A stretch of DNA of 64,000 nucleotides. Source: Chrysomallon squamiferum (lineage: Eukaryota > Mollusca > Gastropoda > Neomphalida > Peltospiridae). Position 1 is the stretch's first letter; each line of letters opens with the position of its first letter. The DNA lies in contig CM022668.1 of the NCBI GenBank assembly GCA_012295275.1, forward strand, positions 12,555,522 to 12,619,521, in the 5' to 3' direction. A program made the translations under genes and the position numbers. Below the pieces are notes generated by a model. That model was given only the letters and a program-made list of their open reading frames with translations, ran no database searches and was not told where the DNA came from. Of the stretch, positions 5,291-39,824 are shown one piece after another.

Positions 5291-5338
<48 letters not shown>

Positions 5339-6631
5339 CACACCTGGTATTAATTACAGGTAAATTTTATTTCAGAAAGCGAATGACAATTCAGGACTGT
5401 CAGAGACACACCTGGCTGACTCAAGATGAGCGCCGAGTCCGATTGAAAAGACTCAACACGGAAAAACTTAAACGATTCATGGCCCGTAGAAAGTGGCAGG
5501 TATAAATTAAATAAATAGTTTACCTTTACCTGTAGCATACACAGCTTATATATATATATGACATAGTGATTTTGTTGCAGGTTTAAATTAAATAAATCTA
5601 TTACCTTTACCTGTAGCATTACACAGCTTATTATACACTTATATATATATATATGTTGTAGTGATTTTATTGCAGGTTTAAATTAAATAAATGTATTACC
5701 TTTACCTGTAGCATAAAAAGCTTATTATACACACACACATATATATATATGTGTCATAGTGATTTTATTGCAGGTTTAAATTAAATAAATATATTACCTT
5801 TACCTGTAGCATACAGAGCTTATTATACATACATAGTGATTTTATTGCAGGTATAAATTAAATAAATATATTACCTTTACCTATAGCATAAAAAGCTTAT
5901 TATACATACATAGTGATTTTATTGCAGGTATAAATTAAATAAATTTATTACCTTTACCTATAGCATAAACAGCTTATTATCCATATATATGTATATATAT
6001 ATCACAGTGATTTTATTGCAGATGTGGATAGTTAAACATATTTCAGAATTCATTTTAATTAATATCAAAGAATATAATAACCAATCAAATATTTTTTTCT
6101 GATAAAATATTTCATAAATTAATTTCATTAAAGGATATAATATGATGTAAGTATTAATGGAAATATTTCATTTTTTTTTTTTTTGAGAAATTATCATTAT
6201 TATTAAAGATTTTATTCTGTGATGTATTTTATAAATTATTTAAATCAGTGAAAGACATATTTTTCTACATATTTTATAAAATATATACTTAAAGGTTTTA
6301 ATATTCTTTATTATTTTTATAAACTATTTAAATAGGATATTATATTCCATTACATGTTTTATAAATTATTTAAATCTTTAAAATTTATAATATCCTGCAT
6401 TTTATAAATTATTTAAATTAAAGTAATAACCTGAAATAGGAAAACAGTAGGTAACACAGGCAAGATACAGGTGTGTTGGGTTGCCAGGTAGGTTACAGGT
6501 GTGTTGGGTAACTAGGTGAGTGGGCAGGTGAAAAGGCTTTAATTAGGCAAGCTGGTGACGGTAAACTGCTTCTCTGCTTTGATCCTTTTTCAGTGTCATG
6601 TTTGAAAAACCAATTTATAAAATATTTTCTA

Positions 6632-6662
<31 letters not shown>

Positions 6663-9587
6663 AATAGTAACGAAGTAAGTAAATAAAAGTAATAAATTAA
6701 TAAATAAGTAAATAAAATAGTAACAAAGTAAGTAAATAAAAGTAATAAATTAATAAATAAATAAATAACATAGTAACGAAGTAAGTAAATAAAAGTAATA
6801 AATTAATAAATAAATAAATAAAATAGTAACTAAGTAAGTAAATAAATAAATAAATAAAATAAAATAGTAAGTAAATAAGTAAGTAAATAAATAAAAGTAA
6901 TAAATTAATAATTAAATAATAAGTAAATTCATTTACTGTATAATAAACTAGATTTCAAAAATAAATAAAAAATAAAATAGTAATATAATAAATAAATGTA
7001 ATATATTAATAAATAAATACAAAGTGCTAAATGAAGAGTATTTAATTTACTATATAATAAACTAGTTTCTACGAATAATAAATAAATAAATAATTAATTG
7101 AAGTAATAGTCATAAAATTACAAATTAATTAATAAATGGAGATAATACTAGTGGTAAAGTTCACTACAATTCACTACTTTGTAATAAACTAGATTTCTAC
7201 AAATAATAATAACAACAACAACAACAACAACAACAATAATATAATAATAATAATAATAAATAAATATTAATACTAAATAATTATAATGATAACAATGATG
7301 ATATTATAATAATAATAATAATAATAATAACAGATAAATACAGATAGATAATTAAAAAATAAAATAGTAAATATATACAGATATATAAAGTGATTCAATT
7401 CAGTGCAGTTCAGTATTTATGAATAAAATAAAATAAAACCCAAGTAAAATAAAACAAATACAAACAATTTAAAATTAATTAATTTAAAATTAAAATATAG
7501 CTGTTGATTTAAGCAAATTTAATTTGAAAAAGATTATCATTATTAAAACACTTTACTGTTAAAATTAAATAATGACACAACAAAAATATATACATTTTAA
7601 ACAGCTTGTGTACTTAGAAATATGTAAACATTAATAAATACACAAAAATTATATTTGTATTAAAAGTCCTTATTAGCACGTTTGATTTTTGAGAAATAAT
7701 ACATTTAAATAATTAAATATATACTTCAAATATTCTCCTTTACCCCTCAAATATTACTGTTAAAAATATATGCATTTTCTGATTACCTCCCTTTATCTTA
7801 AACTTTGAATATATATATCTCTGATATTTCTGAGTTGTATTTAAAGTGTACCTGTATGTCATGAACAATTAGCTTACAAATGTGTTACTGAGCACAAACC
7901 TTTGATAATAATAAAGTAACAGTCTTTCTAAGACACATGGAAGTAACAATTTTCCTTTGTAATATGACATCAGTTTGTGCACAGACATGTAAAAAATGCC
8001 TGGCAGACTGAGTAAATTTTATGACAGAAATTAATACATTCAGTCTGTCAGCATTTTTTTTTATTTCTGTGTAACAAAAAGATGTTAATAACTTTGGAAA
8101 AATGTAGCCTCATTCATTTGTGTCTTAGATATTTTATTGTCAACCTTCATTATTAGAAAAGATTGGTTGTCAAAAATTAAAACATTAAGAAGTGTATAAA
8201 TTGTCAACCTTCATTATTAGAAAAGATTGGTTGTCCAAAAATAAAACATTAAGAAGAATATAAATAGTCAAGCTTCATTATTACAAAAGATTGGTTGTCT
8301 TAAATAAAACATTACGAAGTACATAGACTGACACACTTCATTATTAGAAAAGATCGGTTGTCAAAAAATAAAAAAATAAGAAGTATAAAAATTGTCAACC
8401 TTCGTTATTAGAAAAGATTGGTTGTCAAAAAATAAACAACTTTAAGAAGTATATAAATTGTCAACCTTCATTATTAGAAAAGATTGGTTGTCAAAAAATA
8501 AACAACATCAAGAAGTATATAAATTGTCACACTTCATTATTAAAAAAGATTGGTTGTCTTAAAATAAAACATTACAAAGTATATAAATTGTCAAGCTTCA
8601 TTATTAGAAAAGATTGGTTGTCAAAAATTTCGGCTGTCTGTTCATGCCAGTAGTACAGGTGCATTTTAAATCCTTACTGTCCCATTCTGACTACCTTGGT
8701 TTGTTGTTTGGCCCATGCAGTGCATGCTTGCTTTTTCCATTGTGCAGAAAACTGGTACTGCAATACGAGCGCTGGGCCGCATGGCATCGTTGCAACGCTT
8801 GTTAAGTTCCAACCCCAGCAGCAGCAGTGGCAACACCGCCTCTTGTAGTTCGACTGGGAGTAACAGCGCAAGCACTGGTTCCCTCTCAAGTCTCAACCCG
8901 TTTTCATCTCCAATTAACAAGGTACACGAAGATGATGCCGACGCTTCAGAAAAGGCAAAGAGAAGGGAGATAACTCCAGGAAGCCCCAGCCCCAGACAGG
9001 GAAGGGAGATGACTGGGGAAGAAAAAGATGAAAATGTCTTCACCGAACAGTTCTCCAAATCGAGGAAGCCTACTCAGGTGTCACAAGAATTCGTTAGCAA
9101 AAGGGAGATAACCGGTAACGGGGACCATTTTTTCAAAGCGGTGCCAACGGAGAAAAATTCCCAAAGTGAGTCAGGTCATAGTTTAGACTGCACTGCCATT
9201 TCTGCCGCAGACAAATTGAATCCCACTGCTCAAAAAAACAATGGACACATCACAAACGGATTCGACACCAACTCGAAAAGTTCAGATTTGCGTCCAAAGT
9301 TTGTGAAGAAGATGGTCGACTGCCAGGCATTCAAAGGCGATGTCGTCAGGTTTGACATCAAGGTTGCTGGCAACCCGTGTCCCTCGATATCGTGGTATCA
9401 TGAAGATGAGGTGGTAGTCGAGGACCACAGACACATTGTTGAAATCGGTGGGTATGGGCAGTGGTCGCTGATTATTCGCAAAGTGACCGAGGATGACGAT
9501 GGAGAGTACACGGCGAAGGCTACTAATTCATGCGGGGAAATTTCCTGTTCTGCCGAGCTTATTATCTGCGGATCAGGAGCATTCTGA
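2497..9587 (+). CDS. MYLK: Myosin light chain kinase, smooth-muscle type; 5'-partial: kinase, calmodulin-binding and C-terminal Ig domains
   Basis: Ca2+/calmodulin-dependent Ser/Thr kinase that phosphorylates myosin regulatory light chain in the actomyosin cytoskeleton. Exons: 2497-2614, 2952-3152, 3881-4222, 4799-4951, 5376-5499, 8748-9587; all introns are GT-AG and all phases agree, giving 591 in-window residues. Seen: Gly loop GRGKFGNV across the first junction, WAAKIV lysine, catalytic HLDLKPEN, DFGLA, FGTPEFVAPE, then ARRKWQ joined over a 3.2-kb intron to KTGTAIRALGRM, the MLCK calmodulin-binding helix. A Ser/Asn-rich linker and a C-terminal I-set Ig (telokin-like) domain follow, stop at 9585-9587. 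The Ig domain has its Trp (ISWY) but lacks both usual cysteines (RFDIKV, YTAKATN). The first exon opens in mid-codon after an acceptor, so earlier Ig/Fn3 exons are expected upstream; the ATG at 2511 could start a short isoform but is more likely internal. Identity is near certain; paralogue assignment is inferred. Confidence 0.95.
3220..3850. repeat. GGAT-type tetranucleotide and compound TA/GT/CA/GA microsatellites
   Basis: Positions 3220-3345 hold degenerate ATGG/GGAT tetranucleotides. Positions 3490-3850 hold TA, GTAT, GT, TA, CA, GA and GACA runs in turn, ending about 20 bp before the next MYLK exon. Open frames on both strands here are low-complexity ([12 protein letters not shown]) and are not genes. 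Confidence 0.85.
4223..4705. repeat. 39-bp minisatellite starting at the MYLK exon donor
   Basis: About twelve units close to 'GTTTATAATTATATTTGTAT' + 'TTTAGTGTAAAGGGTTGGA'. The first unit is the splice donor itself: the exon ends at 4222 and GTAAGTTTATAATTATATTT begins the array. Later units carry GAAGTTTATAATT or GGAGTTTATAATT at the same place. Each unit also contains TTTTAG followed by TGTAAAG. Confidence 0.9.
5500..6021. repeat. ~75-100-bp minisatellite with acceptor-donor composite cores, starting at a MYLK donor
   Basis: About six units, beginning at the donor GTATAAATTAAATAAAT of the exon that ends at 5499. Each unit runs through TTACCTTTACCTRTAGCATA, AGCTTATTATAC, a short TA stretch and GTGATTTTATTGCAG, and then restarts with GTATAAATTAAATAAAT or GTTTAAATTAAATAAAT. 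The last unit ends TTTATTGCAG at 6021 and is followed by ATGTGG instead. Confidence 0.92.
6630..7375. repeat. AAAT-rich low-complexity tract with higher-order ~55-bp repeats, then CAA/AAT tracts
   Basis: The segment 'AAAATAGTAACGAAGTAAGT' + 'AAATAAAAGTAATAAATTAA' recurs about four times between 6657 and 6850, inside simple AAAT. CAA and AAT trinucleotide runs follow at 7206-7330. Intronic to MYLK. Confidence 0.75.
8136..8632. repeat. ~64-bp minisatellite upstream of the last MYLK exon
   Basis: About eight units of 'TTGTCAACCTTCATTATTAG' + 'AAAAGATTGGTTGTCAAAAA' + 'taaaacattaagaagtatataaa'. The array stops about 115 bp before the acceptor at 8747. It is distinct from the arrays nearer the 5' introns. 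Confidence 0.9.
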
Positions 9588-13822: not shown

Positions 13823-14509
13823 TTATTTTCTGTATACATGTTCTTTTACAGATTTGCCACAATTACAATACCAGTCAGAAAAGAAATTCCAATCTTCAAA
13901 CATGTCGATATGTTCAAATGTTTTGAGTCTATGTTGTCGTACATCTAACAGCATTTCTTTCGAACTGTGAAATATGATATGATCTTTAACATCATCTATT
14001 TTAAAACAAATAGCTTCTTCACCAGAAAACTCGTAACTTAATTTTATTCTGTATACTGATGTTTCTGTAACTATCTTTGTTTTTAACTGTGTATTTATCT
14101 CACGGTTTGAAATGCTGTAAAATGAAACATCTTTCACAAGAACAGTATCATGAGTCTGAAAATAATAATGACAGTCTTTAACATCAAATACAGACTTCAG
14201 TTCTTTCTTATGTTGCATCACGTAATCCTTTATGTGTTCACATGAAGCATCATATATCAAGTCGCAGAAATAGTTATCTTCAACACTGTATTCTTCCATA
14301 ATGCTATCATCGATAATGGAAGCATGACCAGTGGTCAGTCTTAACTTTTTTTCATCCAAACACATGTTGATAAAATCACATATCGCACAGTCTGCTTTTT
14401 CCATGTAATTAACAAATCTGAAATCATAGTTTTCGTCAAATGAATAATCTTCTTTTCTTCTTATTCCAATGCAGCTCACTATATATAATGTTTTATTCCA
14501 GAAATCCAT
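13823..14509 (-). CDS. Unrecognised intronless ORF, 228 residues, cysteine-containing
   Basis: The longest uninterrupted frame in the window apart from the MYLK 3' exon, and not low-complexity: it uses all amino acids and contains ordered acidic/aromatic stretches. Visible features are three cysteine clusters (CAICDFINMC near residue 42; CDLIYDASC near 80; WYCNCGK near 214) and many Asp/Glu/Phe/Tyr residues. There is no signal peptide or membrane segment. I recognise no family, and the cysteine spacing matches no zinc finger I can name. The start ATG at 14507-14509 sits 10 bases after a TTCAG that could be an acceptor, so a 5' UTR intron is possible. The gene is convergent with MYLK. It could be a lineage-specific gene, a retrocopy or a fragment of an old mobile element. 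Moderately sure it is coding, unsure of everything else. Confidence 0.5.
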   Translation of the reverse strand: MDFWNKTLYIVSCIGIRRKEDYSFDENYDFRFVNYMEKADCAICDFINMCLDEKKLRLTTGHASIIDDSIMEEYSVEDNYFCDLIYDASCEHIKDYVMQHKKELKSVFDVKDCHYYFQTHDTVLVKDVSFYSISNREINTQLKTKIVTETSVYRIKLSYEFSGEEAICFKIDDVKDHIIFHSSKEMLLDVRQHRLKTFEHIDMFEDWNFFSDWYCNCGKSVKEHVYRK

Positions 14510-14822
14510 GATTGTTAACCTGAACGAAATGATGAAAGTGATTTAATTCACACAGGAACATGTAGTATAAAATTTTAAAAAAGTTCCAAATATATATCAG
14601 AACACTAAAAAAAAAAAAAACTATTTCAGGAAATTGTGAAATACATAAGTGGTTTATTTATTTAAAGCGCAGTTTTTTTCAAAACCATGCAGAGTGGGTT
14701 CACATGCCCTTTTATTTTAAACTTTGACCCCCCTCTTGGAAACTCCCCCAGGGTATGCTCTACAAACCATTAATATATATATATTTATAACCATACTATG
14801 TTTTATATAATAACAAAATAAT

Positions 14823-23283: not shown

Positions 23284-26200
23284 ATGGGGAAGGGAAGCCA
23301 AGGAATGGTGAACGGGATTGAGAAGGAGATTAAAACATTTACTCGGGAGGATGTAAAGAAACATGACCAGAGGGACGACAAGTGGATCGTGATCCAGGGA
23401 GAGGTTTATGACATAACTAAGTGGGCTCGAAGACATCCAGGTGGAAGCAGACTCATCAGCCACTTCGCTGGGCAGGATGCCACAGTAAGTAAAAATACTG
23501 GTAGTTTGTTAATGTCCTCTGATGAGAATTGAACCAGGATACCCTGTATGAGAGTCCAGTATTCTAACTTAGAGAGGTAGAAAGGATATTATATAAAACA
23601 GATACTTCTATCCTTCCAACATAGATATGTATATAAATATAACTCTGTCCATTCTTACATATACATATCCATCCACCCTTTTGCATGCACGCACACACAA
23701 CACACACACTCAGAGTAATGTAAATGCTGATTATTTTAAATCAAGTAATTAATGATCATGCTTATGAAAGAATGTGATATATGTACAGTCTATGGGAAGG
23801 TATATATAAAAGAGCCCTTACTGCTAATTACTAAAAATAGTCCATAGAATGGCAATGGCACAATTCTTTCATGCTCTCTCTCTCTCTCACAGACATGCAT
23901 GCACACACACACACACACACACTCACAAAACTGACAAAAATCATTAATATTAAATCACACCATTCATTCTACTTTGTTCGTAATACATTTGGATCATTAT
24001 TCTTAATACATTAATGATTTATTTATTTCAGGATGCCTTTCGAGCTTTCCACAACAACCTGACTGCAGTCAGCAAGTACCTGAAACCCATACATGTAGGA
24101 ACTCTACCTGAGTCAGAGCAGAATGACAGCGAACTGCAGAAAGATTTCAGAGAGCTGAGAAAAACAGCAGAACAAATGGTGAGAGATGTTAATGTTAATT
24201 ACACAGATGTCTGATTCTCCTCTTCATAAATTAATGTAGCTTTTTGTAAATGCTTTTTTCATTAATTCTTGCCTTGAATGAAGATATAAAATTAATTCAT
24301 TTTCTTTAGTGTTGTCCCTAAATAATAATAATAATGGTAACAGTAGTAGTAATAATAATAATAATAGTAATAATAAAAATAATAATGATGGTAATAGTAA
24401 TAAAAATAAAAAAAATAAAAGTAATAACTAATAATAATAATAATAAAAGTAATAATAAAAGTAATAATAAAAATAAAAGTAATAATAACTAATAATAATA
24501 AAAGTAATAATAAAAGTAATAATAAAAATAAAAGTAATAATAACTAATAATAATATTAGTGATAATAGTAATAACAACAGTAATAATAATAATAACAAAA
24601 GTAATAATAATAGACAGCTATGGACTAGAGAAGCAAAGAGGTAATTAAATCTCATATTATGAGGCAGCCCACAAAAACTGGCCATGTTTCACATCAGTGA
24701 AAATAAACAACAGAAAATCAATTCTGATAAATTAGTCTTTTAAAAAAAAAACCCCAAAACCCCCAAAACCTTTTTATCTTTCATTTTCTCTTGTTTTTGT
24801 TTTGTTTCCCAGGGCCTCTTCAAACCAAACCCACTGTTTTTTGCAATGCATCTTGGTCACATTTTGCTGCTGGAGGTTATGGCGTACCTCATCCTTCGGT
24901 ACTTCGGAACAGGCTGGTTGCAGCTCTGTCTCTCCATGGCTTGTTTTGTTGTAGTAGAGGTAATGTACAATATGTTTGTGTATTACACGGGTTTGTGGTT
25001 AATAACAAAGGGGCATTCTCTGTATGTTGAATATATTTGATATGTTTGTAATAGATATTTTTTTTTTTTTTTTTTTTTACCTATGTTACATAGGTTGGTG
25101 GTTTACAGCTGCATAAAATGTCACTGTTTTGTTTGGATATGTTTCATGTGTTTGTAGTAGTAATGGATTTTTTTTCATACACTACATGTTTGAAAATGTT
25201 TTGAAATGTTTGTGTTAATTGTCCTTGATATAGTTAGAGCTATATACATCATGGATTGTCAGATACATTTGCAATAGTCATTATTATTATTTTTGCAATT
25301 GTTATAGTTATTATTATCATCATAGCCACTATTTATTATTATCATCATTAATTTGTTCATGTTATAATTATAATTATTGTCATCATTTTTGTGTTTCAGC
25401 ATTTTTATTAGTTAAATTTTAAAAATCTTTTATGATGTAGGTGACAATAAATTAATGTGACAGCTTAAATTATTTTATTTTTGAACCTCTATAAGTCTAT
25501 TCAACCTTTTTTTCATGATGGTTAAAATGAAAAATATATAAAGAAAAGAAAGGGGAAAAGGGCTGGGAAAATATTTACATTTCAGAACTTTCTGTTGTCC
25601 ATACTTAATCAACTCTAATATTATTATATTATTAGATCCATAATTTCTTTAATATTTATACTTGATAATAAGATTGAAAACTGTCATGGATGGACCATCT
25701 AAACTAAAAGTACTTAATGAGAATCAAGCGCATTTTATTATTGACAATTCAAGATAGCTATGCAACTTCAAAGCTTGTAAACTAATTATGTGATTGACAA
25801 TTTAAAATAAATATAACAGATATTAACATCAGGGGATCCAGGCTACAGATAACTGAAGTTTTGTTGAATATCTACAGAAGTTAGTGGGAGACACTAATTT
25901 CGTATCCAGGTTATTCAGAATCGTGTACACTGACACATTTTGAATTACAAACAGCTTAATCGTGTTGATGTTGGAGTTGTAGCTGATGTAGTAGAGTAAA
26001 CAAGGACACAAGCCTTGTGTGTGTGTGTGACCCCTTTGTAAATAGATTTAAATTTATTTGTTTAAATGTTTTTATTGCAGAAGCATGTTGATTTTTTTTT
26101 TTTTTTCAATTAATCTGCATGCCTTATGTACATATATATATAATCATTAATTAATATATGATATAGAGAAATGTAGTTTGATTTCCACTGAACAAAATTC

Positions 26201-29200
26201 TCTGAATTTCTGATATTTAATAAAAATGTATTCCAACTATTTTATTGTATAAAAATAAATAAAGGAGCAGAATTATGTTTATTGAAAGTAATTTAGACCC
26301 AGGATTTACATGTATTGAAATTATTTAGACCCTTTATTTTCTGTATTGAAATGAATTTAGACCCTTTAATTCTGTATTTATATGCATTGAAATATATTTA
26401 GACCCAGTATTTTCTGAATTGAAATATAGTTAGACCCAGTATTTTCTGTATTGAAATGTATTTTGACTGTATTTATATTTACTAAAATTAAATTATACTC
26501 TTTATGTGCATGCATTGAAATGAAATTAGACTCACAATTTACATAAAATGAAGTTAGTTAGACCCTGTTTTTATGTGTGAAACTGCCCTTGTTAGTCTTG
26601 TTGTTTTTAAAATGTGTGGATATTTAATTATTAATTTATCTTTTTCTTTAATATGTATATAGATATATATATATATATATATATATCATTTTTGTTTTTT
26701 CTTTGTCACTGCTTATTTTTTCTAGGCACAAACTGCCTGGATTCAGCATGATTTTGGTCATCTTTCCACTTTTAGTAATTTATTTAGTAGCAAACTGGAT
26801 CATCTTCTCCATTATTTTGCAATGGGATTCATTGAGGTAAACTGCAGTGCGTGGTGCTGGCTGTTTGTTTGTTAGTCTGTGCATGCTGCACTGTTTTACT
26901 TAGTCATGTCTTTACCAGAAGTGACAGGATTCGGTTTATTTCAGTTATCTTGCTTGTTAAAGCTTGATTTTAAAACTAATTGTATTACATATTTTAAAAG
27001 TTACTTGTACGCTTTAATGTAGAAGTAACTGATTTTTGAATTTTAATTTTTTTTTTTTTTTTTTTTTTTAGAATTATGCATACATTAATTCATTTTTTTT
27101 TTTCATTTAATATTCATTAAACATTTAACAAACAAAAATATATATATATATATATATAGTTGTCAATTCAAAAGCATTTTAATTGTAAAACCAAAATTGC
27201 TCTGTAAAGTATTTTAGTTGTATTATGGCTACTACTGCTGCTACTGTTGGTATTATTATTTGTAATACTAGTAGTAGTTGTAATAGTAGTTTATATTTTT
27301 ATTATTTACTTATTTATTTTATTTAAGTTTTAAATCCTGTAATATAATTTTTTTTATTTTTTTTTTTTTTTTTTAATTTTTTTTTCTTATGGTCATTAAA
27401 ATACAGATTTATTCTTAAAATGATTCAGAAGTTTTAGTTACTTATAAAAATAAACACAAATTTTACAATATGAAAAAAGCTATGAACCAAACGATAATGA
27501 AAATTATGCCACAACAAATAATCAGAATCCTGTCATTTCTGGTTCGCAAATGCATGCATTTTCTGGACAGATTTTCTTCTTTTTGTTTTTAGGAAAGTTT
27601 CACAAAATAATAGAGAAAAATATGGTTTATATTTAGATAGATTCCACTTGGGAGCCATTGCTTTATAAAGTTTCATTCTTTTGTTTTTGGTTTTATCTGT
27701 AAACCTTTATTCAGGGATAACCAAATTTAGATGGCTGGGTTTATGCTTGATAATTTTATATTACCCACATATATGAAAACAGTACTAAAATTGATTCCTG
27801 AAATTAGACCAATTTTCTTTAAAAAAAAAAACAATAAGCATTAAAGAACTGTTATTGTTTTTCAAAAATAAATGTCTAAAAACAATTTTTAAAGAAGTAC
27901 ATTCAAGGATTTTAATTTGAGAATATCATTCTTGAAGAGGAATTTAAATTATGTAACTTTGAAACAATAAAACAATCCCTAAATAAATAAATTCATTAAA
28001 ATTAAAAACCCAAATAATAAAATAAAAAATAAAAAATAAAAACGTGAAAAAAAACTGATAAACAATGGTTATTCATCTGGAAATACTGTTCATTATCATT
28101 ATTATTACATTAATAAAATATTGTGAAACTTTACGAGCACATTTAAATTTTTATCCCAATGCACCCCATGCTTGTGAATGCGCTAAAGTTGGCACGCAAT
28201 CAAGCTGGTTTGTTTTCCTAATTCAAAATTTCTGCTGAATTTTTTTTCCTTAAACTTCTCACATTAAGATTTTTTAAAAGCTTACATTCAGGATAGCTAT
28301 TTGCAAATTAAATTGTTACTTTTCAAAATGTATAAGTGATAAAAATAGGATGGGTTGGTCACTGATGGGAAATGGAATATTTTTTATTTTTTCATTTTCC
28401 TTCGTAAAGAAATAGACCAAAATACAACTGTAGAAATGATACCTGAATTTTCAGTTCCAATAACACTAGAAACAAATAATGCAAAAACCAGATATTTAAT
28501 AAAAAAAAAAAAAAAAAAAAAAAAATAAAATCTGAAACCACTAGCCTTTTATTTATATTTGATACTTTAAAAAAAAAAAAAAAAAAAAATCTCTTTAGTA
28601 CTGTGCATTCTTCAGTTGTTGAAGAAAATTTAAATTACAAACAAAGAAGAGAGAAATCAAAACTGAATCTAAATTAATGTTAGACACCGTATCTTTAAAA
28701 GATTAACCCTCAAATTTGATTTTCTTACTATTTTGCTATTTATATATATTTTTTATATTTTTTATATTCTGCATGTTTTCAACTCAATCAGAAGACAACC
28801 ATCATGGCTTTTATTTGATGATCGTGGTTCAGCAGTTGATAGAAATAAATGGTTGCCATAATAACTTGTCCCCAACCATTGTGATATTTATTTTTATGTT
28901 GCATGCATATATTCATTTTAGGTTTTTTTTTTTTCTCATTTTTTTTCTTTCTTTTTTTTACCTTTTTGTCATAAGTTCATCCAATTTGCATTCATGCTGT
29001 GAAGAAAAAGGGACTGTTTATTTTTCGGAAGAAAAAAGTTTTTGGAATGGTGGTGTTTTTTTTTATATATATATATTTACTATTTATTTATTATCATCTC
29101 ATTCAGTCATTCATAAATCCATCAAATTTGTTAGGCAGTGAAGAAGTCAACCTTCGTTGTTGTTGTTTTTTTTCAGAAGAAAAACAAAACTTTGAAGAAT

Positions 29201-31025
29201 TGCATTTTTAAACATTCACATCTCTTCTCTTTTCCATCCTTCATAAATCCATCGAATTTGTATGCAGGGAAGAAATCAGTCATTGTTTTACAAGATACCT
29301 GAAACAGTGCCTTCTCTATTTATTATTCTTATTTATTCTTTCATGAAACCCAAATGCAGTGAACCATGAAGGTCATAAACCTAATCAAAGGCATCACAAA
29401 TGCATCCACTTCTTTACCCTTTACAGAAAAGAAAAGAAAAGAAAAAAAAGGAAAGGAAACTGGATTGATCATCAGAAATGATGACAAGGTTTTTGAAGAA
29501 ACGACCATTTCGGCCATCTTTGTTCCCGACTGTAACAAAATATTTCTTATAATTTGAAATTGTTCCCCTTATACTTACAGGGTCAGGTCGGATGGATTCA
29601 ACATGACTTTGGCCATTTATCAGTTTTCCCTAAATCTTACATGGATCATTTCTTTCACTACTTCACTGTCGGATTCATAAAGGTAACGTTTTAGTGTCTA
29701 CAGGAGCAAAAAAAAACAAAAAAAATTAAACTATGTAAAAAATTAAAAAAAAAAAAATTAAAAATTAAGAAATCTTTTTTAGAAAAATTTAAAAAAGATG
29801 ATAAATGTTTTTTTATAAATTTAAAAAAAAAAAATTGAAATTTAAATAGAAAAAGGAAAATAGTTTAAAAAATAAAGATTAATAGATAAATAATAAATAC
29901 AATTTATAATTTAAAAAAATAGAAAAAGAAGATAAATAAAAATAATTATAATTTAAAAATTTAAAAATTAAATGGAAAAGTATGCTATATTTAGAATTCC
30001 CCCCATTAACAACAATAATATAGCCAAACTGCATGTGTAGTTTGCAGTAGAAAATATTTTAACCTATTCGATATATTTAGTACATTTACTAATTTTATGT
30101 AATCACTGTACAGCATTTAGTTGTAGTGTAAATTAACATTAAATTTGTAATCCCTTGAATAAGCAGATAATTAGCATATATCTCAGTTGTTTTTGGCTAT
30201 AATATTTTAGTTAATAGGAAATATCTGTTATAATTAACTAGAAATTAGCTTAAAATAAATTCAGTTAAAATTAAGTTAAACTATAGTTATACTTGAGACT
30301 TAACTTACAATACGGTTTTGACGAAATTGAAATAAAATTAGTTAAAATGAACTTAAAATTTAGTTATGTTTAATATAAAATACAATGAGATTTAATCAGT
30401 TAAAGTAAAATTAGTTTCAAAATACAATAATTATTGTGTGTTTTCTAAGGTGTCAGTTTTAATGGGTTTTTTCAATACGAAAAATATCTGAGCAAATTTT
30501 TCTTTTTTGTTTCAATGTTTTGTAATTATAATTTTTCGTCTAACTGAAAAATATTACATTGAGTTATTGATTTAATTAGCTTATTTACATGATTTATTGA
30601 TTTGTTGTCAATTAATTTAATTATTAAAAGTTTTGTTTTTTATCGGTACACTGACTGATTTTTAAAATCCGTTTACAATATTCAACTCAGCACATATTTC
30701 CTGTCATTCCCTTTAAAACTAAGGCACCTGTGGGCACACAGAAGCACAGTTTTACCCAGTACATTCTGCTTCATGCTTGATTCTAAATGCTTTGCTTTGC
30801 ATAAACTGGGCACATGTTATTAAGAATAAACATTATAATAACCCTGGTGATGTGTATTAACATTGTTATTAACCTGGTGTAATATGTAAAACATGTGACT
30901 ATGAAAGGTTTATTAATTTGTATGAATATGTTTATGTGTATAATTTATAATTGGAAGTATTTAAGAAAAGGTGTATAAATAATAATATACAGCTTGTGAT
31001 ATGTGATATGCTGTATTTATAAATT

Positions 31026-31072
<47 letters not shown>

Positions 31073-32078
31073 CACACAGACACAGACACACCTAATATAA
31101 CAGTAATATATTATTATTGATATTTATTATTAATTTTATTATTTTTAGTTTTACCATTTAAATTTAAAGCAGATTTGTCACTTTTCTCAATTAATTTTGA
31201 TACTTCGTACTGGACAACAATTTCACACAGAGATAAACTAACTGACCTTTGTTTTAAAAATACAAACTGAACTTTTTGCAGAATTCATTGGCTTGAGGCC
31301 AGATTGTTTTCAGAATATATCAGAAAATGTGTAATATTTGAAACAATGATGATAATGGTGGTGATGTAGTCACCTTTGTTCAATGAGCTATTTAAAATAC
31401 TGCAGTTCTAGTTCTGTTTTACTTGCTTCAAAACATTTTACGTAAAATTAAAAAACAAAAACAAGATGCCCTAACCTGTTGTATTATCAGTAGATACAGT
31501 AAGTGGTTATAGTTTGATGAAGTATTCATTTGTGTGAGATTAGGCAGGTTTCTTCTCTTGAATTTCAGTACCAAGTGTTGTGGTGTGTATTAGATAATAA
31601 GGGTCTAACACCAGCATGTTTTTGTGTGTACATGTGAGCTAATAGATTAAGATTAATTGTTGGTCTGTGTTAGTGTGTGTGATTTTAATGGTTACTGTTT
31701 GATAAAGAATTTCAGCGTTGTCAGCTCAAGCAAATTTGTTTTTCTTGATTTGTCTTGAGTAGTTTAACTAAACATTTTGTTTGTGTAAATGTGAAATTCA
31801 GAAAATAACAATAGTTGTATCATGGTGGTGTGTAAGTGATTGTGTGCGATTTTAATGTGAATTTGTATTTGTCAGCATGATCTGTTGAGATAAAATGTTT
31901 TCTATACTTACATATTTAGGTCAAACTTTTATATATATTCATATTTTACAAACACCCCCCCCAGTATACATTTACAGGCACACAATCACAACACGCACAA
32001 ACTCGCACACACACTCCAAATCATACATAAGCACATGTTTACATGCTTAAATTGTAATATTTATTTATTTATTTTCAG

Positions 32079-32110
<32 letters not shown>

Positions 32111-34016
32111 ACAGACAGACACAGACACACAGCCACACACACCTGCACACAGTCATCCATTGTTCACCTGTTGGTACATTTTTCATTCCATCCAAAGCCC
32201 TATAACATATTGTTTATTATCCTTTCAATGGGAAGGTCCTTCATAAATTATTCCTTATTGCTAATTGATAAATGTAGCTTACTGAATAGTTGCAGTGGAT
32301 GTTCTTTCATTTAATTCGCAAACAAACAAACAAACAACAAAAACTTATTTTAAATGTAATTTTTTTTTTTTTACTATATTACGAAAATCTTCAGATATTT
32401 ATCAGGAGTTTATGAGTCAGATGATTCTAGTAATAGCATTTCTTGACCTACTGACCTATTTGTTGAATCGGGCTTTTACTTCCTGACTGCAATTGCTGCA
32501 ACCATGCAGACGATTTCATGACTTTTTTCTTTATTCACAGCTCATTAATATTTATGAGCTAATTTTACACAGTCAACATTAAGCATGAGCTTCATAAAAT
32601 TGCTTTTTGATGACATAAAAAAAAAAAAAAAAAAAATGATAAATTTTATCTGCAACAGCTGTTATCCTTGGTTTGACTTTTAATAAATAATTTATTGCCA
32701 GTTAATTAAACTGTTGACTGAATAATTAACTTTTAGATATTTTATAGGCGGGGAAACATTAATTTCATGGAAAATGAAATGATAATAAAAAAATAATAAA
32801 GTTAATGGATGGTACATACACAAACAGAATGGAAAGAATAATGGATTTAGTTTGTAATTGAATTTGGTTTGAAATGGTTTCTCCATTATTTGCGTTGAAC
32901 AGGAAAATGTGGTAAACAGGTTTATCAGTTATCATCTGGATTAATACATTCACAATAAAAGATTTGCTTTAAAGTCTGTAGATTTTTCAGAGGTGTCTGA
33001 AGTTCAGAATTAACCTCTTACATTACATAACAGCAGAAAGGCTTTTAATCCAGTATCCAAAGAGTCAGAGTACAATGTTTTGTACCCAGGTTGTTCAGTT
33101 TGTAAAGCTTTGACTGGTTAAAATAAATTAAAAGGACATCCTTTATTTCACTGCAGCTTAGACTTGGGATATTGCTACTGTGTGTTTGGCCAGTCTAAGG
33201 GTTAAATTTATAACAGGATCTAAGATGAGGTAGATACATCATCAATGAATAGTATATATCTAGTATGAGATGTAGCAACAATCTAGATGTAATACATGTT
33301 GTTTTTTAATGTAACAGTATAACATATAGACCTTATACAGTAAAGAAAAACAATCTGTAAAATGACATTACACCATATACAAAATAGCACACAAGCCACA
33401 TAAAATAAACAAAATAACACACAGACCATATATAATATTCAGAATAATACACAAACCATATACACTATACAAAACAACACCATATGCAATATGCAAAACA
33501 ACATCAGACCATATGCAATATATAATATAACAGACCTTGTACAATATAATCTGTAAATAACATGAAGTAAACAAAAGAGCACACGAGAATATTCTAGACA
33601 TCAATGTTACGCAATAACAAAAACATTTCGATCCTGATCTGACCTGACCTGACCTGGCCTGACATAATATCAGTAATAAATAAATATAACTGGGTGACTT
33701 TCACCTTGGTGCAGAAGACCCATCATCACAAACTGTTGTGTTGATGATTTATAGCTTCTGCGTAGTTTAATTAGTGGAGTGATATCTGCGATAAACACGT
33801 CTTCAGATAACAGAACCAAGTTAAAGTCCTGTTTGTCGGACAGTTTGTGTGTACCTGTGTCTGTGTGCGTAGTTTCTAGAAGACTGATCATTGGTCAGGT
33901 GTTAACGATCCATGGATGTTAAATGTTGTACTAGTGTGAGAAATTAAATGGAGATAAAAAAAAATTTACGAATTCTTTATTTTTTATTTATTTATTTTTT
34001 ATGGGGTGTATTTATG

Positions 34017-34057
<41 letters not shown>

Positions 34058-35141
34058 TTTTAATAACAGTGGGTGTTTTGAATATTAAAAAATAACAATT
34101 TTTATAATATTTCTTAGTCTGGTTTATATATTTGTTTGTGTTTATAGTTTGGTGTATGTATGTGTGTGCATGTGTTTATGTAAGTATGTATGCGTGTTTG
34201 TATGTATGTATGTGTGTGTAAAATGTGTATGTAATGTGTGTGTGTGTGTGTCTGTGTGAATGAATGTGTGTATTATTATTGTATATTTGTACATATAGTT
34301 GTAACATGATACTCTATTGTTTTCTCTTGAGACAAAGTTCAATTATTGAAGTTTTATCACCGACCAAATAACCTATAATAAATGTGCCAAATCCTAGAGC
34401 TAAACGTGCAGAATATCATGAATAAACATCGATTCAAGTTGTATGAATGTGCTGTAAGTGAATGACTGAATATATTAGATATATATAGATAGATAGATAG
34501 ATGTTATTCATATTGTCGATGAATCACTTGTTTGCATAATACACAAACTATCTGTATGTATATAGGTTCTGTGTGTGTGTGTGTGTGTGTGTGTATGTTT
34601 GTGTGTGTGTGTGTGTGTTTGTGTGAGTGTGTGTGTGTGTGTTGGTTGATTAGTGTGTTAATGTGTTTTACTATTTGTGTGTTTTTTCTCTATGTATGTG
34701 CATGCATGCCTGCATTACACTTTGTTTGGGATCTAAAGGTGTTTTACTATTAAAAAATTTTTTTTTTTTAAATTATATCTTGGGGAAAGTATTACATTTG
34801 ATTAAGTTTTACAAAAGCTGTAATGTAAGTACTTAGAGGCAGCATTCATTAAAAAGCACATAACACATTTATCATACTATCACGCATACACACCACATGC
34901 ACACATAAACATACGCATACAGAGATACACATACTTGCACATACAACATACATGCAGATAGACTTTGACTGATAAAGGGCCAAAGATAAGGTAATTAATT
35001 TACCAAACAAAAAAAACCTATAGTTGGCTATAACTAAGATATACTAATATTACACATCATTAATGTATGCATTTGTTTAGAATTTCTTTCTGTAAACAAT
35101 GAACACAGAAAACTTTCTATTGATAATTATATATATGTATG

Positions 35142-35176
<35 letters not shown>

Positions 35177-37192
35177 GTATGTATGTGTGTATGTATGTAT
35201 GTGTGTGTATGTGTGTGTATGTGTATATATATACATTTTAAATATTTCATTTGAAATGTGATGAACAATCCACAAAATTTTTAAAAATATTCTTTAAACC
35301 TTTGATTAACATATTCATGGAATTCATTGTTTTTTACCAGTTTTATGCTGCATCATTACTTTGGTATGTTGGAGCATTCTTACACATTTTATCAAGCTAA
35401 TGAATTCTGCAATTATATAACTGGACATAAAAAATTAAAACTGACATGAAAAAATAAAGTGACAAATCTGTTTGGAAGTAAATTGTTATGAATGATTGCT
35501 ACAGATTAAGGAATTTCATACTAGCAAATAACCTATATATATATATATATAATAGTGTCTGTGTGTACACACATGTATTTTATGTAACAGACACACACAT
35601 GCACTCATACACAGATACATATGTATAGCTACAATATAATGAAAATACATTATTAATGAAAATATTATAAATATTTTGAAACATAATTAAATTTAAATAA
35701 TTTGTTATAAATTAGTATAAACCTGAGGATTATTTTAACTAATATTTATTTATTGTTTCGACTGAGATGAAAGTACAATAATTCAAACTGAAAAATAATT
35801 TGTTTTAATGATTTTAAATTTGCAGGGTGCTTCTCCTTCATGGTGGAATCACATGCACTACCAACACCATGCCAAACCCAATGTGGTATGTACTGCCTTG
35901 TATTTAATTTACAGTTGGAATAATCTTGTTTGACATTTTATATTTGTTTCTTGTTAAATTATATTGATGTTTCAAGATGTTTTGTTTTGATTTTTAGGTG
36001 TTATTTTTATTTATTTATTTTTACTTAATAAATATATATATATATTTCTATTAAAACTCTTCTTTTTTCTGTTTGAAATGTAAAATATATTTTATTTTAT
36101 TTTATTTTATTACAATTTAACAGTTTTATTTTTCTTTTCTACAGAAAATGGATTGGTCAATTCTTATTATTATTACTGTTACTATGATTATTATTGTTGT
36201 TGTTGCTGCTGTTGTTTTTGTTTTTATTATAAAAAGTGTTTGATGACATTCATATGTTTCTTTGAAAATCTAGCATAAGTTTCAGTTTTCCTTTACATTA
36301 AGCATTTAAAAAAAAAAACACAAAAAAAAACACAAACTTTTTTTGGGGGATTTATTTTCAGATTGGGAAAGATCCTGATGTGAGGATAGAGAAGCTGTTT
36401 GTTGTTGGAAAAATAATGCCTGTTGAGGTAAAAATTTATTATTAAATAAAATGTTTGACAAAGAACAGTATGTTTTTTCTTTCTTGCCCATTATTTTCAA
36501 GCAATAAGATCAGTTTTATTTGTAATCTTTTCATGAAAATGGGCAATAAAATGTAAAAAAAATATTTTTTTCAATTTTTCAAACATTTATGATTCACGAA
36601 GGTTTGCTGCAAAATAAGTAATATATGAATATTATGAATATATTGGTGCCAGGAAATTTAGAGAATGAATTCAGTGTGTGATTTATGACAATCTGTTGAA
36701 AATTTAATTTAACTGAATATGTTAATACTAAAATATATATAAATTTTAAATATATTTTTATATAGGTTGTCGTATTTATTTTTAAACTAAAATATATATA
36801 AATAGAACCATTTTATTTATTTAGTTATCTCTTTAATTTGAGTAACATATTTTTTAAATGTAAAACTAATTTTATTTATTTTATTAGATTGCAAAAAGCA
36901 AATCAGGAGGAAGCATGCCGTACAACTGGCAACACAGATATTTCTTTATAAGTAAGATTTGTTTTTTTTTTTCTCATTTCTAATTACTATTCTTACTTCC
37001 TACGTAATTATTTTTATATGAATACAAGTTTCATAATAAAACTGACAACAGCACCAGTTAAATAAAGGATATTGAAATTTCACTGTTCATTCACCGTTTT
37101 ATATATATATATATATATGCTGCTGTAATACTGCATTGTTTATTTCAGGATCATTTAGCATTGTTTATCATTATATATTAAATGTTCTGTTA

Positions 37193-37224
<32 letters not shown>

Positions 37225-39289
37225 TTTTATTTTATTTTATTTTATTTTCAGTTGGGCCACCACTTCTGTTCCCGGTGTATTTCCAGATTATGCTTTTCAG
37301 ACATATATTTACAAGAAAGTTGTGGTTGGTAAGTATCGTTTTATATATATATATATATTGGTAATAGAAACTAGATATTTATTTCATCCTTGACTGTTAA
37401 TTTGGGAGTGGGGGAGTGAAAAACAGAATTAAAGTGTAGTTTTATATTTTTATTCAATTCTTGATTTTATTTGCAGATTTGTTATTTATTTATAGTTATT
37501 GTTATAATTATTATCATTGAATCATTACTGATACTATTTTCATTATTATTTAAAGTTATTACTGTTACTAGCACCATTATTATTATTATTATAATTAGTA
37601 CTACTGTTATCATTACTACTATTGTTATCATTATTTTTATTATTATTATTACTACCACTATTAATACTATTGTTATTATTAATTATTATTTATATTTTAT
37701 TATAACCATTACTACTATTACTACTACTATTATTAATACTATGTTATTTTCATTATTATTATTATTACTTGTATTACTGTTACTACTATTTCTGCTGCTA
37801 CTACTATAACTACTATTACTACTATTGTTATTATTATTAAAGTGTTATTACTTTCATTACTACCATTATTACAATTACGATTATTATTATTATTATTAAT
37901 ATTGTTACTACTTCTACTATTAATACTATTTTTGTTACTATTTTCAGGATTTGGCTGTGGTGATTGCATTCTTTATAAAGTTTTTCTACTTGTATGCTCC
38001 TTTACTGGGCTTTGGTGGAGCAGTTGCTTACTACTTCACCTTCAGGTACCGTTTGTTTCAAATTTAACATATCTATGCATGTGTGTGTGTGTGTGTGTCT
38101 ATATATAATATATGTACATGGGTGTGTGTGTGTGTGTGTGTGTAAATATATATTACAGATTCACAAATGTGTATTATATTTCAAAGCAGTTTATTAGTTT
38201 TGTTATTTATTGCAATTTCATAACTGAAAAAAACATTGTTGGAATTTTAGTATTCACAATTTACTCTGAATTCAGTTAAAATTATTTCTGATTAAATTAT
38301 ATATATTTTTTTTATTTTATTTCCTGGCTTTAATTTCATTATAGTTACTATTAATAACATTGCTGTCACTTCAAGTTGTTTGAAAGCATCTGATTCACGT
38401 AATTTAATTTCATTATAGTTGCTATTAAATAACACTGTCGTCACTTCAGGTTGTTTGAAAGCATGTGGTTCACCTGGGTTTCCCAATCCAACCACATCCC
38501 CATGGAGATCAAGCATGAGGAAGATGAGCCGTGGGTGATTGCACAGCTTCGTGCATCATGCAACGTCGAGCCGTCGTTCTTCAACGACTGGTTCACCGGA
38601 CATCTCAACTTTCAGATTGAGCATCAGTGAGCTACATTTTTCAGATTATAAATCTTAATTTTAATTTTTAAAACTGTTCCGATTTCGGATTTGCAAGTGT
38701 AGTGTATATAATGGTTAAAATGTGTAATTTAAATTTAGAAAATAACATTAAATTTTGTTTTAATTTTTGTTATGAATATGAAAATAAAAAAACTCTCTGT
38801 CTCTGTTTCTCACTCCCTTTCTCCATCTCTCTTCTCTTCTCTTCCTCTCTTTTTGCTTTCTTTCTCCTTCTGTCTCTCATCTTTATCCCCTTTCTCCTAC
38901 TCCCTATGTCTTTTTCTACTTCATACCTATTCACCATTCTGACAGTACCTCAAGTTCATCAAAAACCATGTATGTACTTTCCTGACTGTTGAAGTCTGCA
39001 TATAAAAGATTCCTTATTGCTAACTGCATAACATCAATAGGTTTCCTCTCGTGTGTAGATTAAACAGTGGTTTTATTTCACCTTATTTTTCAGCCTGTTT
39101 CCTACAATGCCCAGACACAATCTGCACAAAATCACACCACTGGTGAAATCTATGTGTGAAAAACACGGCTTGGAGTTCAAAACCAAAACTCTGTACAGGG
39201 CATTTGCTGACATCGTCAAGTGAGTATTCTTGTATATATATCCTTGTAAGTATCCTAGTATGTGTTATTGTTTATATCCTTGTAAGTAT

Positions 39290-39333
<44 letters not shown>

Positions 39334-39512
39334 TTGTATCCTAGTATGTTTTGTTTGTATCCTAGTATGTATCCTTGTTTCTAACCTTGTAAGTATCCTA
39401 GTATGTATTATTGCTGTTTATATCCTTGTAAGTATCCTAGTATGTATTCTCGTATATATATATATCCTTGTATCCTAGTATGTATTGTTTATCTTTGTAT
39501 CCTAGTATTCTC

Positions 39513-39546
<34 letters not shown>

Positions 39547-39824
39547 TTGTAAGTATCCTAGTATGTATTCTTGTTTCTAACCTTGTAAGTATCCTAGTAT
39601 GTATTCTTGTATGTATCCTAGTATGTATTTTTGTGTCTGTAAAAACAAAATTTGATTCTTGGTTTACAATGATATTGACTTATTAATGTAACATGTATAG
39701 TGTTGAAATTTATGGTGTTCTGTTTTCGTATTTCAAAATTATTTTTTAATCTTTACTTTTCAGGACACTTGAGCATTCAGGACAACTTTGGTATTCCACG
39801 TACAAGGCTTACCACAGTTCCTAA
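23284..39824 (+). CDS. FADS: Front-end fatty acyl desaturase with N-terminal cytochrome b5 domain, alternative exon 4
   Basis: ER-membrane enzyme that puts a double bond between an existing one and the carboxyl end of acyl-CoA in polyunsaturated fatty acid synthesis. Exons: 23284-23484, 24032-24178, 24813-24959, 26726-26836 (4a) or 29581-29682 (4b), 35826-35885, 36362-36427, 36888-36951, 37252-37328, 37948-38045, 38450-38626, 39094-39219, 39764-39824; GT-AG and phases agree. The product is 444 residues with 4a or 441 with 4b, usual for the family. Seen: cytochrome b5 haem motif HPGG near residue 52; histidine boxes HDFGH (exon 4), HYQHH (exon 5) and QIEHH (built across the 38626/39094 junction); hydrophobic spans in exons 3, 8 and 9; C-terminus LEHSGQLWY. 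The start ATG follows an acceptor at 23245, so the 5' UTR is split. Delta-5, -6 or -8 specificity cannot be read from sequence. Confidence 0.95.
23519..23573 (-). repeat. tRNA-derived SINE-like fragment
   Basis: Read on the - strand it resembles the A-box and B-box half of a tRNA-derived SINE: TTAGAATACTGGACTCTCAT, then GGTTCAATTCTCATC (a B-box GGTTCRANTCC-like core). It sits about 35 bp inside desaturase intron 1 of the coding part. It is truncated and diverged, and no full tRNA can be folded. Confidence 0.45.
23785..23860 (+). repeat. Diverged copy of the dispersed mollusc repeat
   Basis: Reads CAGTCTATGGGAAGGTATAT then ATAAAAGAGCCCTTACTGCT + AATTA, the same core as at 20325. Followed by CT and CA microsatellites, a usual neighbour of this repeat type. 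Confidence 0.55.
24320..24615. repeat. AAT/AGT-rich trinucleotide tract
   Basis: Interrupted AATAAT with AGTAAT and ACTAAT variants, arranged in places as a higher-order unit of about 60 bp. Intronic to the desaturase. Confidence 0.85.
26270..26585. repeat. ~35-45-bp minisatellite upstream of exon 4a
   Basis: About eight units of 'TGTATTGAAATGAATTTAGA' + 'CCCAGTATTTTC', recognised by ATTGAAAT and TTAGACCC. The array ends about 140 bp before the acceptor of desaturase exon 4a. Confidence 0.8.
26726..26836 (+). CDS. Desaturase alternative exon 4a (histidine box I)
   Basis: 111 bp, phase 0 at both ends, acceptor TTTTTTCTAG and donor GAG|GTAAAC. Encodes 37 residues beginning [16 protein letters not shown], with the catalytic HDFGH box. 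Homologous to the exon at 29581-29682 (about 20 of 34 aligned residues identical) but three residues longer just after the box. Either exon joins in frame to VVVE upstream and GASPSWWNH downstream. Confidence 0.88.
28965..29275. repeat. ~120-bp degenerate tandem repeat upstream of exon 4b
   Basis: Three units marked by 'TTCATAAATCCATCRAATTTG' (first copy TTCATCCAATTTGCATTC), GAAGAAAW and TTTCAGAAGAAAAA-like sequence. The array ends about 300 bp before exon 4b. Confidence 0.55.
29581..29682 (+). CDS. Desaturase alternative exon 4b (histidine box I)
   Basis: 102 bp, phase 0 at both ends, acceptor TATACTTACAG and donor AAG|GTAACG. Encodes 34 residues beginning [16 protein letters not shown]. 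It lies 2.7 kb after exon 4a and 6.1 kb before the next constant exon. HLSVF is closer to the usual family sequence than HLSTF of 4a. No stop codon or lost splice site marks either exon as dead. Confidence 0.9.
31029..31090. repeat. (CA)n microsatellite
   Basis: About 20 CA units then CACAGA variants. The long intron 29683-35825 otherwise holds simple repeats and AT-rich unique sequence with no extra exon seen. Confidence 0.95.
32180..32290 (+). repeat. Diverged copy of the dispersed mollusc repeat
   Basis: Shows TTTCATTCCATCCAAAGCCC, ATTATCCTTTCAATGGGAAG + GTCC and ATTCCTTATTGCTAATTGAT, matching in order the TTCCAGCCA, TATCCTGTCTGTGGGAAGG and TCCCTTGCTGCTAAT parts of the family. Preceded by a (CA)n tract. 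Confidence 0.5.
33362..33560. repeat. ~34-bp minisatellite in a desaturase intron
   Basis: Units of 'CACCATATACAAAATAGCAC' + 'ACAAACCATATA' type; about six diverged copies, later ones with ATGCAATATGCAAAACAACA. Confidence 0.65.
34565..34650. repeat. (GT)n microsatellite
   Basis: Interrupted GT repeat. Further GTAT/GTGT tracts lie at 34150-34260 and 35135-35230 in the same intron. Confidence 0.9.
37540..37935. repeat. ATT/ACT trinucleotide tract leading into desaturase exon 9
   Basis: Nearly 400 bp of ATT/ACT/GTT triplets that run up to the acceptor TATTTTCAG at 37947. Frames made only of Leu, Ile, Thr or Asn here are artefacts of the repeat. Confidence 0.9.
38925..39062 (+). repeat. Best-preserved copy of the dispersed mollusc repeat
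   Basis: Shows in order ATTCTGACAGTACCTCAAGT, ATGTATGTACTTTCCTGACT, GCATATAAAAGATTCCTTAT + TGCTAACTG and AGGTTTCCTCTCGTGTGTAG. It ends about 30 bp before the acceptor of the desaturase exon that completes the third histidine box. Confidence 0.6.
39220..39645. repeat. Donor-anchored minisatellite in the last desaturase intron
   Basis: Begins at the donor GTGAGTATTCTTGTATATAT and continues with about ten short units of 'CCTTGTAAGTATCCTAGTAT' + 'GTATT', separated by TA runs. Most units therefore contain a consensus-like GTAAGT. Confidence 0.9.

Follow-up and report, generated by a model that had tools for sequence, protein, structure and literature searches.

Two probably alternative histidine box I exons in a predicted front-end desaturase gene of Chrysomallon squamiferum

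A desaturase gene with two versions of exon 4

We analyzed a stretch of 64,000 nucleotides from the genome of Chrysomallon squamiferum (GenBank assembly GCA_012295275.1, contig CM022668.1, positions 12,555,522 to 12,619,521 of the forward strand), hereafter called the window and numbered from its first letter. Its + strand carries, at 23284-39824, a complete gene for a front-end desaturase with 12 exon positions, or 13 exons when a second exon 4 is counted. The two versions of this exon, 4a and 4b, both encode histidine box I of the enzyme, and they are probably used in alternation, as mutually exclusive exons of one gene. The spliceosome would link exon 3 with one of the two, and that one in turn with exon 5, so that a single gene would yield a full-length enzyme of 444 residues and another of 441; these would have the cytochrome b5 domain and histidine boxes II and III in common and would differ in the box I segment and the 20-odd residues after it. 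We infer that both forms are made in C. squamiferum, and rarely together.

Exon 4a (26726-26836, + strand), placed by its borders, frame and homology, has 111 bases and encodes 37 amino acids, three residues more than exon 4b (29581-29682, + strand; 102 bases, 34 amino acids). It starts with GCACAA after an acceptor ending in tctag and finishes with ATTGAG ahead of the donor gtaaac; exon 4b starts with GGTCAG after tacag and finishes with ATAAAG ahead of gtaacg, and both exons are in phase 0 at both ends. The coordinates, phase and splice borders reported for the pair in the initial annotation were confirmed on the sequence. All introns of the gene are GT-AG, and both spliced products form an open frame from ATG to stop codon, of 444 residues with 4a and of 441 with 4b. 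A search with the full-length protein gave 2,498 homologues, of which the best 120 were listed, and the homologue counts below rest on these; 34 residues, the length of 4b, is the commonest exon 4 length among them.

Alignment of 4a with 4b gave identical residues at 21 of 34 positions (62%), compared with the value of about 59% given initially. Nine of the 34 aligned codons were identical, 12 differed silently and 13 changed the residue; the NG86 method gave a dN of 0.30 with dS saturated, no value being computable. These codon differences are the mark of purifying selection on both copies. Both exons retained the invariant exon 4 residues of a 59-sequence alignment, and box I kept its H, D, G and H in all 115 listed homologues with at least 30 exon 4 residues. 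The two exons are distinguished by the residue that precedes the tryptophan (A in 4a vs G in 4b), by the segment after box I (VFPKSYMDH in 4b) and by the last residue (E vs K).

Chance resemblance of the two exons was excluded, because each retrieved the other in a search of the whole 404.6-Mb genome (E 2.5e-7 and 1.1e-7), in which only the best candidates were scored. Apart from each exon itself and its partner, the matches reported came from two paralogous genes, with a single exon 4 apiece. In the whole window no other desaturase exon was found doubled, as the initial annotation had held, and no third exon-4-like stretch was detected; a tblastn search of both strands with the entire protein turned up no additional desaturase exon.

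The pair also stands out by its introns, a feature absent from the initial annotation. Those between exon 3 and 4a (24960-26725, +), between 4a and 4b (26837-29580, +) and between 4b and exon 5 (29683-35825, +) have 1,766, 2,744 and 6,143 bases, respectively, and the remaining nine introns of the gene have 300-634 bases. Two paralogous front-end desaturase genes lie on the contig of the window, at 9.24 Mb (L014) and at 15.58 Mb (L012, L017/L018). The exon 4 genome searches reported one match in each and no second exon 4 in either. The introns around the single exon 4 have about 729 and 301 bases in the 9.24 Mb paralogue; in the 15.58 Mb paralogue exon 4 is preceded by an intron of about 0.5 kb and followed by one of about 507 bases.

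Exon 4 swaps in annotated isoforms of other molluscs

Isoforms X1 and X2 of Biomphalaria glabrata (P0006 and P0013) matched at 410 of 410 residues when exon 4 was set aside, and within exon 4 at 17 of 34. As annotated, this is a clean exon 4 swap in another snail, of the kind that the initial annotation had predicted. The best listed homologue was a FADS2-like protein of the peltospirid vent snail Gigantopelta aegis, named "isoform X2" (P0001) and 84% identical overall. Its exon 4 encodes 37 residues, 30 of which (81%) are identical to 4a, and the remainder of the protein is identical at 341 of 407 positions (84%). When exon 4 was compared with all other stretches of the same protein in sliding windows against P0001, 4b was the least similar stretch, none of 341 other windows scoring so low, and 4a was ordinary, with 114 of 335 windows scoring so low. 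Exon 4a is conserved in Gigantopelta; among the sequences compared, 4b had no counterpart from an equally close species.

The sliding comparison was applied to ten pairs. Exon 4 was exceptional between P0012 and P0017 (0/344), two records which the tree places with pulmonate snails, and between Magallana X2 and Saccostrea X1 (the pair P0021/P0019), where 22 of 34 exon 4 residues were shared, 0 of 333 windows were as low and the remainder was 91% identical. It was nearly exceptional for Saccostrea-Ostrea (4/291) and P0012-Bradybaena (5/344), and ordinary for Magallana-Ostrea (63/291), the Nucella pair (76/338), the Babylonia pair (66/303) and Arion-P0017 (291/344). Bivalves may thus also carry alternative exons 4, which we take as a lead only. 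As a general rule exon 4 diverged like the rest of the protein, with a mean difference of -0.02 (s.d. 0.09) over 1,925 pairs whose remaining identity was 60-98%, pairs with fewer than 25 exon 4 or 300 other shared columns having been dropped beforehand.

Among the 120 listed homologues the HDxGH motif of box I occurred exactly once in 115, was missing in four and occurred twice in one, a 740-residue fish record (P0002) in which the two motifs lie 308 residues apart; adjacent double copies of box I were found in none of the 120. A search with just the 4b region gave 3 matches. A short-fragment search for partial transcripts gave 37, the best of them 54% identical over the whole query; 7 were examined and none fitted this gene beyond single exons, P0150 being a short-type exon 4 read into its intron and P0157 an exon 5 read into introns unlike those of this gene.

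In searches of the open-licence literature on mutually exclusive exons or alternative splicing of desaturases, no title or abstract start dealt with an exon pair of this kind in molluscs. The initial annotation knew of no description for a front-end desaturase, but exon-4-swapped isoforms are already annotated in databases.

Age and origin of the exon pair

Exon 4 encodes 34 residues in 101 of the 115 listed homologues with at least 30 exon 4 residues, 35 in 11, 33 in 2 and 37 in 1. Eleven of the 12 records with a longer exon 4 bear gastropod names, and the twelfth, P0014, groups with Littorina. On a tree built from the protein without exon 4 (74 rows, leaving out P0002, P0027, P0045, P0057, P0059, P0063, P0094, P0095 and the unlabelled rows after P0078), long and short exons 4 were mixed among gastropods, with 6 changes, at least 4 of them forced by well-supported branches, and with 3 changes when only labelled gastropod rows were counted. 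Such mixing would be expected from two old exon types if every record displayed just one of them; it would also fit repeated insertions and deletions or gene duplication. In Nucella (P0010/P0011) and Babylonia (P0092/P0007) the long and short types occur in records on different contigs that are divergent throughout the protein, which suggests that some lineages may have parted the two types between duplicates.

A tree of exon 4 itself (35 columns; 33 rows, 31 of them from the 120 listed homologues), whose bootstrap had not settled, joined 4a with the Gigantopelta exon (support 98/90). To judge from this grouping, 4a predates the split from Gigantopelta. The initial view of an old and selected duplication was supported by this age of 4a and by the 12 silent vs 13 replacement codons with saturated dS. 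On the same tree Biomphalaria X2 grouped with P0012 (98/84), and X1 fell in an eight-row group (94/87) with Arion, P0017, Elysia, Aplysia and others; as they sit in separate exon 4 groups, the Biomphalaria pair looks old too. In approximately unbiased (AU) tests on the same 35 columns, a clade of 4a, the Gigantopelta exon and 4b was not rejected (p 0.30), and a clade of the two Biomphalaria exons gave p 0.057.

Proposed mutually exclusive splicing and alternative explanations

The proposed mutually exclusive use of 4a and 4b is supported indirectly, because the Biomphalaria isoforms X1 and X2 differ only in exon 4 and because the Gigantopelta "isoform X2" carries an exon of the 4a type. Several observations weigh against it. 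Both exons are multiples of three bases long and, with phase 0 at the end of exon 3 and the start of exon 5, the frame stays intact with 4a, with 4b, with both or with neither. No convincing competing RNA pairing was found between the intron flanks in 15 comparisons of 350-base flanks with 40 shuffles each (lowest z -2.03). Exon 4 is absent from P0057, P0059, P0063 and P0095, all named bivalves (Magallana gigas, Crassostrea virginica and Mytilus galloprovincialis), so that forms with neither exon are annotated in molluscs, and database isoform models can be partly computational. Exon 4a is atypical at two highly conserved positions, with T in place of the V of 107 of 115 homologues and E in place of the K of 113 of 115. 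Finally, the exon 4 tree and the AU tests leave a single origin of the gastropod pairs unproven; mutually exclusive splicing of mrp-1 has been reported to have arisen independently in different lineages (PMC7434440), which calls for caution against assuming one origin of the exon 4 pairs.

None of the safeguards sought at the locus (a short intron, a frame break, mixed splice-site types or competing RNA pairing) was found, and the 2,744-base intron between 4a and 4b is, by our estimate, longer than steric exclusion of splicing would allow. With the frame kept, a long intron, GT-AG sites throughout and no paired elements, a choice regulated by splicing factors would be the option left. Donors without G at position +5 were found in 5 of 12 cases (exons 3, 4a, 4b, 6 and 9). 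Since the donors of exons 3, 4a and 4b are predicted to pair with U1 (-8.0, -6.9 and -6.8) no less strongly than the remaining donors do (-4.5 to -11.0), the missing G is at most a hint.

The intact frame in every exon combination and the exon-4-less forms of the three bivalve species would also suit leaky, cassette-like inclusion without strict exclusion, in which one exon, probably 4b, would be standard and 4a optional, with mRNAs carrying both or neither being made as well. We consider this improbable, given that adjacent double copies are missing from all 120 listed homologues, that the Biomphalaria pair is a clean swap and that a protein with two box I segments would presumably be hard to fold. 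It is less probable still that one copy is a relic or non-functional exon, retained by chance or rarely spliced. Besides its two unusual residues, the form with 4a has a slightly lower score for the FA_desaturase family (PF00487; 116.5 vs 122.2 bits, both well above cut-off), and 4a is the less typical of the two exons; against its being a relic, it retains the box I residues and both splice sites, is about as similar to the Gigantopelta exon as the remainder of the protein is (81% vs 84%), and belongs to a type used by an annotated Gigantopelta isoform. The Gigantopelta exon itself departs from the common residues at both positions (A and Q), and 4b is unusual in turn, with P where 76 of 115 homologues have K.

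Desaturase genes can plausibly be duplicated in tandem, and 4a could in principle come from another, nested or partly lost tandem gene. This origin has no support within the window and is very unlikely, as the whole-protein tblastn search described above revealed no exon of such a gene, 4a fits the phase of exons 3 and 5, and the 4a-type exon of Gigantopelta sits inside the same, 84% identical protein. An assembly artefact in which two alleles or gene copies were collapsed into one locus might be suspected from the high heterozygosity (1.38%) given in the scaly-foot snail genome paper (PMC7142155); a protein identity of 62% is far beyond allelic difference, the remaining exons are single and the swap recurs in Biomphalaria, which leaves this the most improbable explanation of all. 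For mutually exclusive splicing, the mechanism put forward in the initial annotation, the support from Biomphalaria and Gigantopelta is indirect and the four bivalve records speak against it; we judge the mechanism likely to be right.

Possible function of the exon swap

Front-end desaturases determine which long-chain polyunsaturated fatty acids animals can make, and new desaturase activities are usually attributed to gene duplication. The swap may tune acyl-substrate choice, activity or tissue use, which is plausible because the exchanged segment carries the box I histidines and directly precedes the stretch tied to FADS2 substrate specificity. In particular, we take Arg216, Trp244 and Gln245 of FADS2, from their numbering, to lie just downstream of exon 4. 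Homology modelling and mutation placed these residues, together with Leu323, near the substrate site of rat Delta-6 FADS2 (as reported in PMC7072455). The change in substrate or regioselectivity that the initial annotation had suggested remains a prediction.

A wider proposal, which we offer tentatively and consider rather doubtful as a whole, is that an old gastropod, perhaps molluscan, splice switch in a Delta-5-type desaturase lets one gene provide two long-chain desaturases whose different first catalytic segments are tuned to different acyl substrates, in the vent snail for example dietary C20 polyenes and the n-7 monoenes of its bacteria. The exon types might then have been parted between duplicates in some snail lineages, and some "recently duplicated" mollusc Fads (Aplysia 3/4, abalone Delta-5 1/2 and oyster 2/3) might be products of a single gene that differ by splicing. 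These three pairs, in which one Aplysia member is named "isoform X5", were regarded as recent gene duplications in a survey of mollusc Fads (PMC4550275). A catalytic exon exchanged by splicing would offer another way to new activities, with two enzymes per locus that could be switched by tissue or diet, and mollusc Fad surveys that count transcripts as genes might need rechecking. A natural pair of box I segments on an otherwise identical enzyme would also be a clean tool for studying substrate and double-bond position.

Comparison with known systems

The fatty-acid omega-hydroxylase isoforms CYP4F3A and CYP4F3B arise from alternative exons, and so resemble the present case as alternative exons in a fatty-acid-modifying enzyme; unlike it, they belong to a P450 instead of a di-iron desaturase and their exons are unrelated. 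We regard COQ-2 as the closest working parallel. Its exons 6a and 6e are described as mutually exclusive in helminths, annelids and molluscs, and edits in Caenorhabditis elegans as showing that the exon swap decides between ubiquinone and rhodoquinone (PMC7434440). In COQ-2 the exchange thus remodels the core and switches the substrate. In both cases one gene of a lipid-pathway enzyme has two homologous exons that replace, or in the desaturase would replace, part of the enzyme core. COQ-2 belongs to another enzyme family, and its exclusivity and function were shown by reads and gene edits, those of the desaturase pair being predicted; the desaturase pair is also distinct in that 4a and 4b differ in length (37 vs 34 amino acids).

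Closer by family are the alternative transcripts of primate FADS1, FADS2 and FADS3, 12-exon genes with splice variants that have regulatory effects (PMC4728637). Unlike the predicted forms of the snail enzyme, those described have missing parts, a retained intron or other alterations, and the available excerpts of that paper mention no doubled box I exon. The isoforms of Biomphalaria glabrata and Gigantopelta belong to a related gene with exon 4 swapped at the same position; they are known from database annotation, and no published discussion of them was found.

Gene structure and other features of the window

The remaining exons, all on the + strand, complete the gene. Exon 1 (23284-23484) carries the start codon and the cytochrome b5 domain with its HPGG motif, and was assigned from its open reading frame, GT donor, tblastn and the Pfam Cyt-b5 match; exon 2 (24032-24178) was placed by its AG/GT borders, frame and homology. 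Exon 3 (24813-24959) ends in phase 0 ahead of the alternative exons, with the donor gtaatg, which lacks G at +5, and exon 5 (35826-35885), whose start joins in phase 0, encodes histidine box II within HMHYQHH. It is followed by exons 6 (36362-36427), 7 (36888-36951), 8 (37252-37328) and 9 (37948-38045), by exon 10 (38450-38626), which reaches histidine box III as far as QIEH, by exon 11 (39094-39219), which completes its last histidine, and by exon 12 (39764-39824), the last coding exon with the stop codon.

Both forms matched Pfam Cyt-b5 (88.6 and 88.9 bits), well above cut-off, and the three desaturase boxes are present as HDFGH (I), HYQHH (II) and QIEHH (III). All 53 matches to solved structures fell within the first 99 residues, the cytochrome b5 part. 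The 12 exon positions equal the 12 coding exons of oyster and limpet clade A Fad genes (PMC4550275); for one clade A gene of a clam, PMC10970445 states 10 exons in its text and 11 in a table, so that 12 is not universal. The mollusc Delta-5 enzymes characterised so far belong to clade A (PMC4550275, PMC10970445). After Gigantopelta, the row nearest on the tree was a Haliotis discus Delta-5 desaturase 2 record, and the clade A placement was read from neighbours on this tree of our own rather than from a clade rebuilt with the papers' own sequence set. From these features, the gene is a front-end, cytochrome-b5-fused fatty acyl desaturase of the Delta-5-type clade A, with its activity predicted.

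No Rfam family reached the gathering score in the window. Elsewhere in it, a 239-residue open frame (13823-14542, - strand) and an open frame with short repeats of the type QKSPASYRSNSP (48681-48983, +) had no Pfam match at E 0.01. An open frame at 52335-52619 (+) matched a JAB/MPN ubiquitin protease with 26.9 bits at a cut-off of 22.5 (GWYHSHPHCQPDPS). At 3861-9587 (+) a protein kinase exon (Pkinase, 130 bits) is followed by an open frame in which an immunoglobulin I-set domain was matched (74 bits); the two may belong to one gene, of the myosin-light-chain-kinase/titin-like kind.

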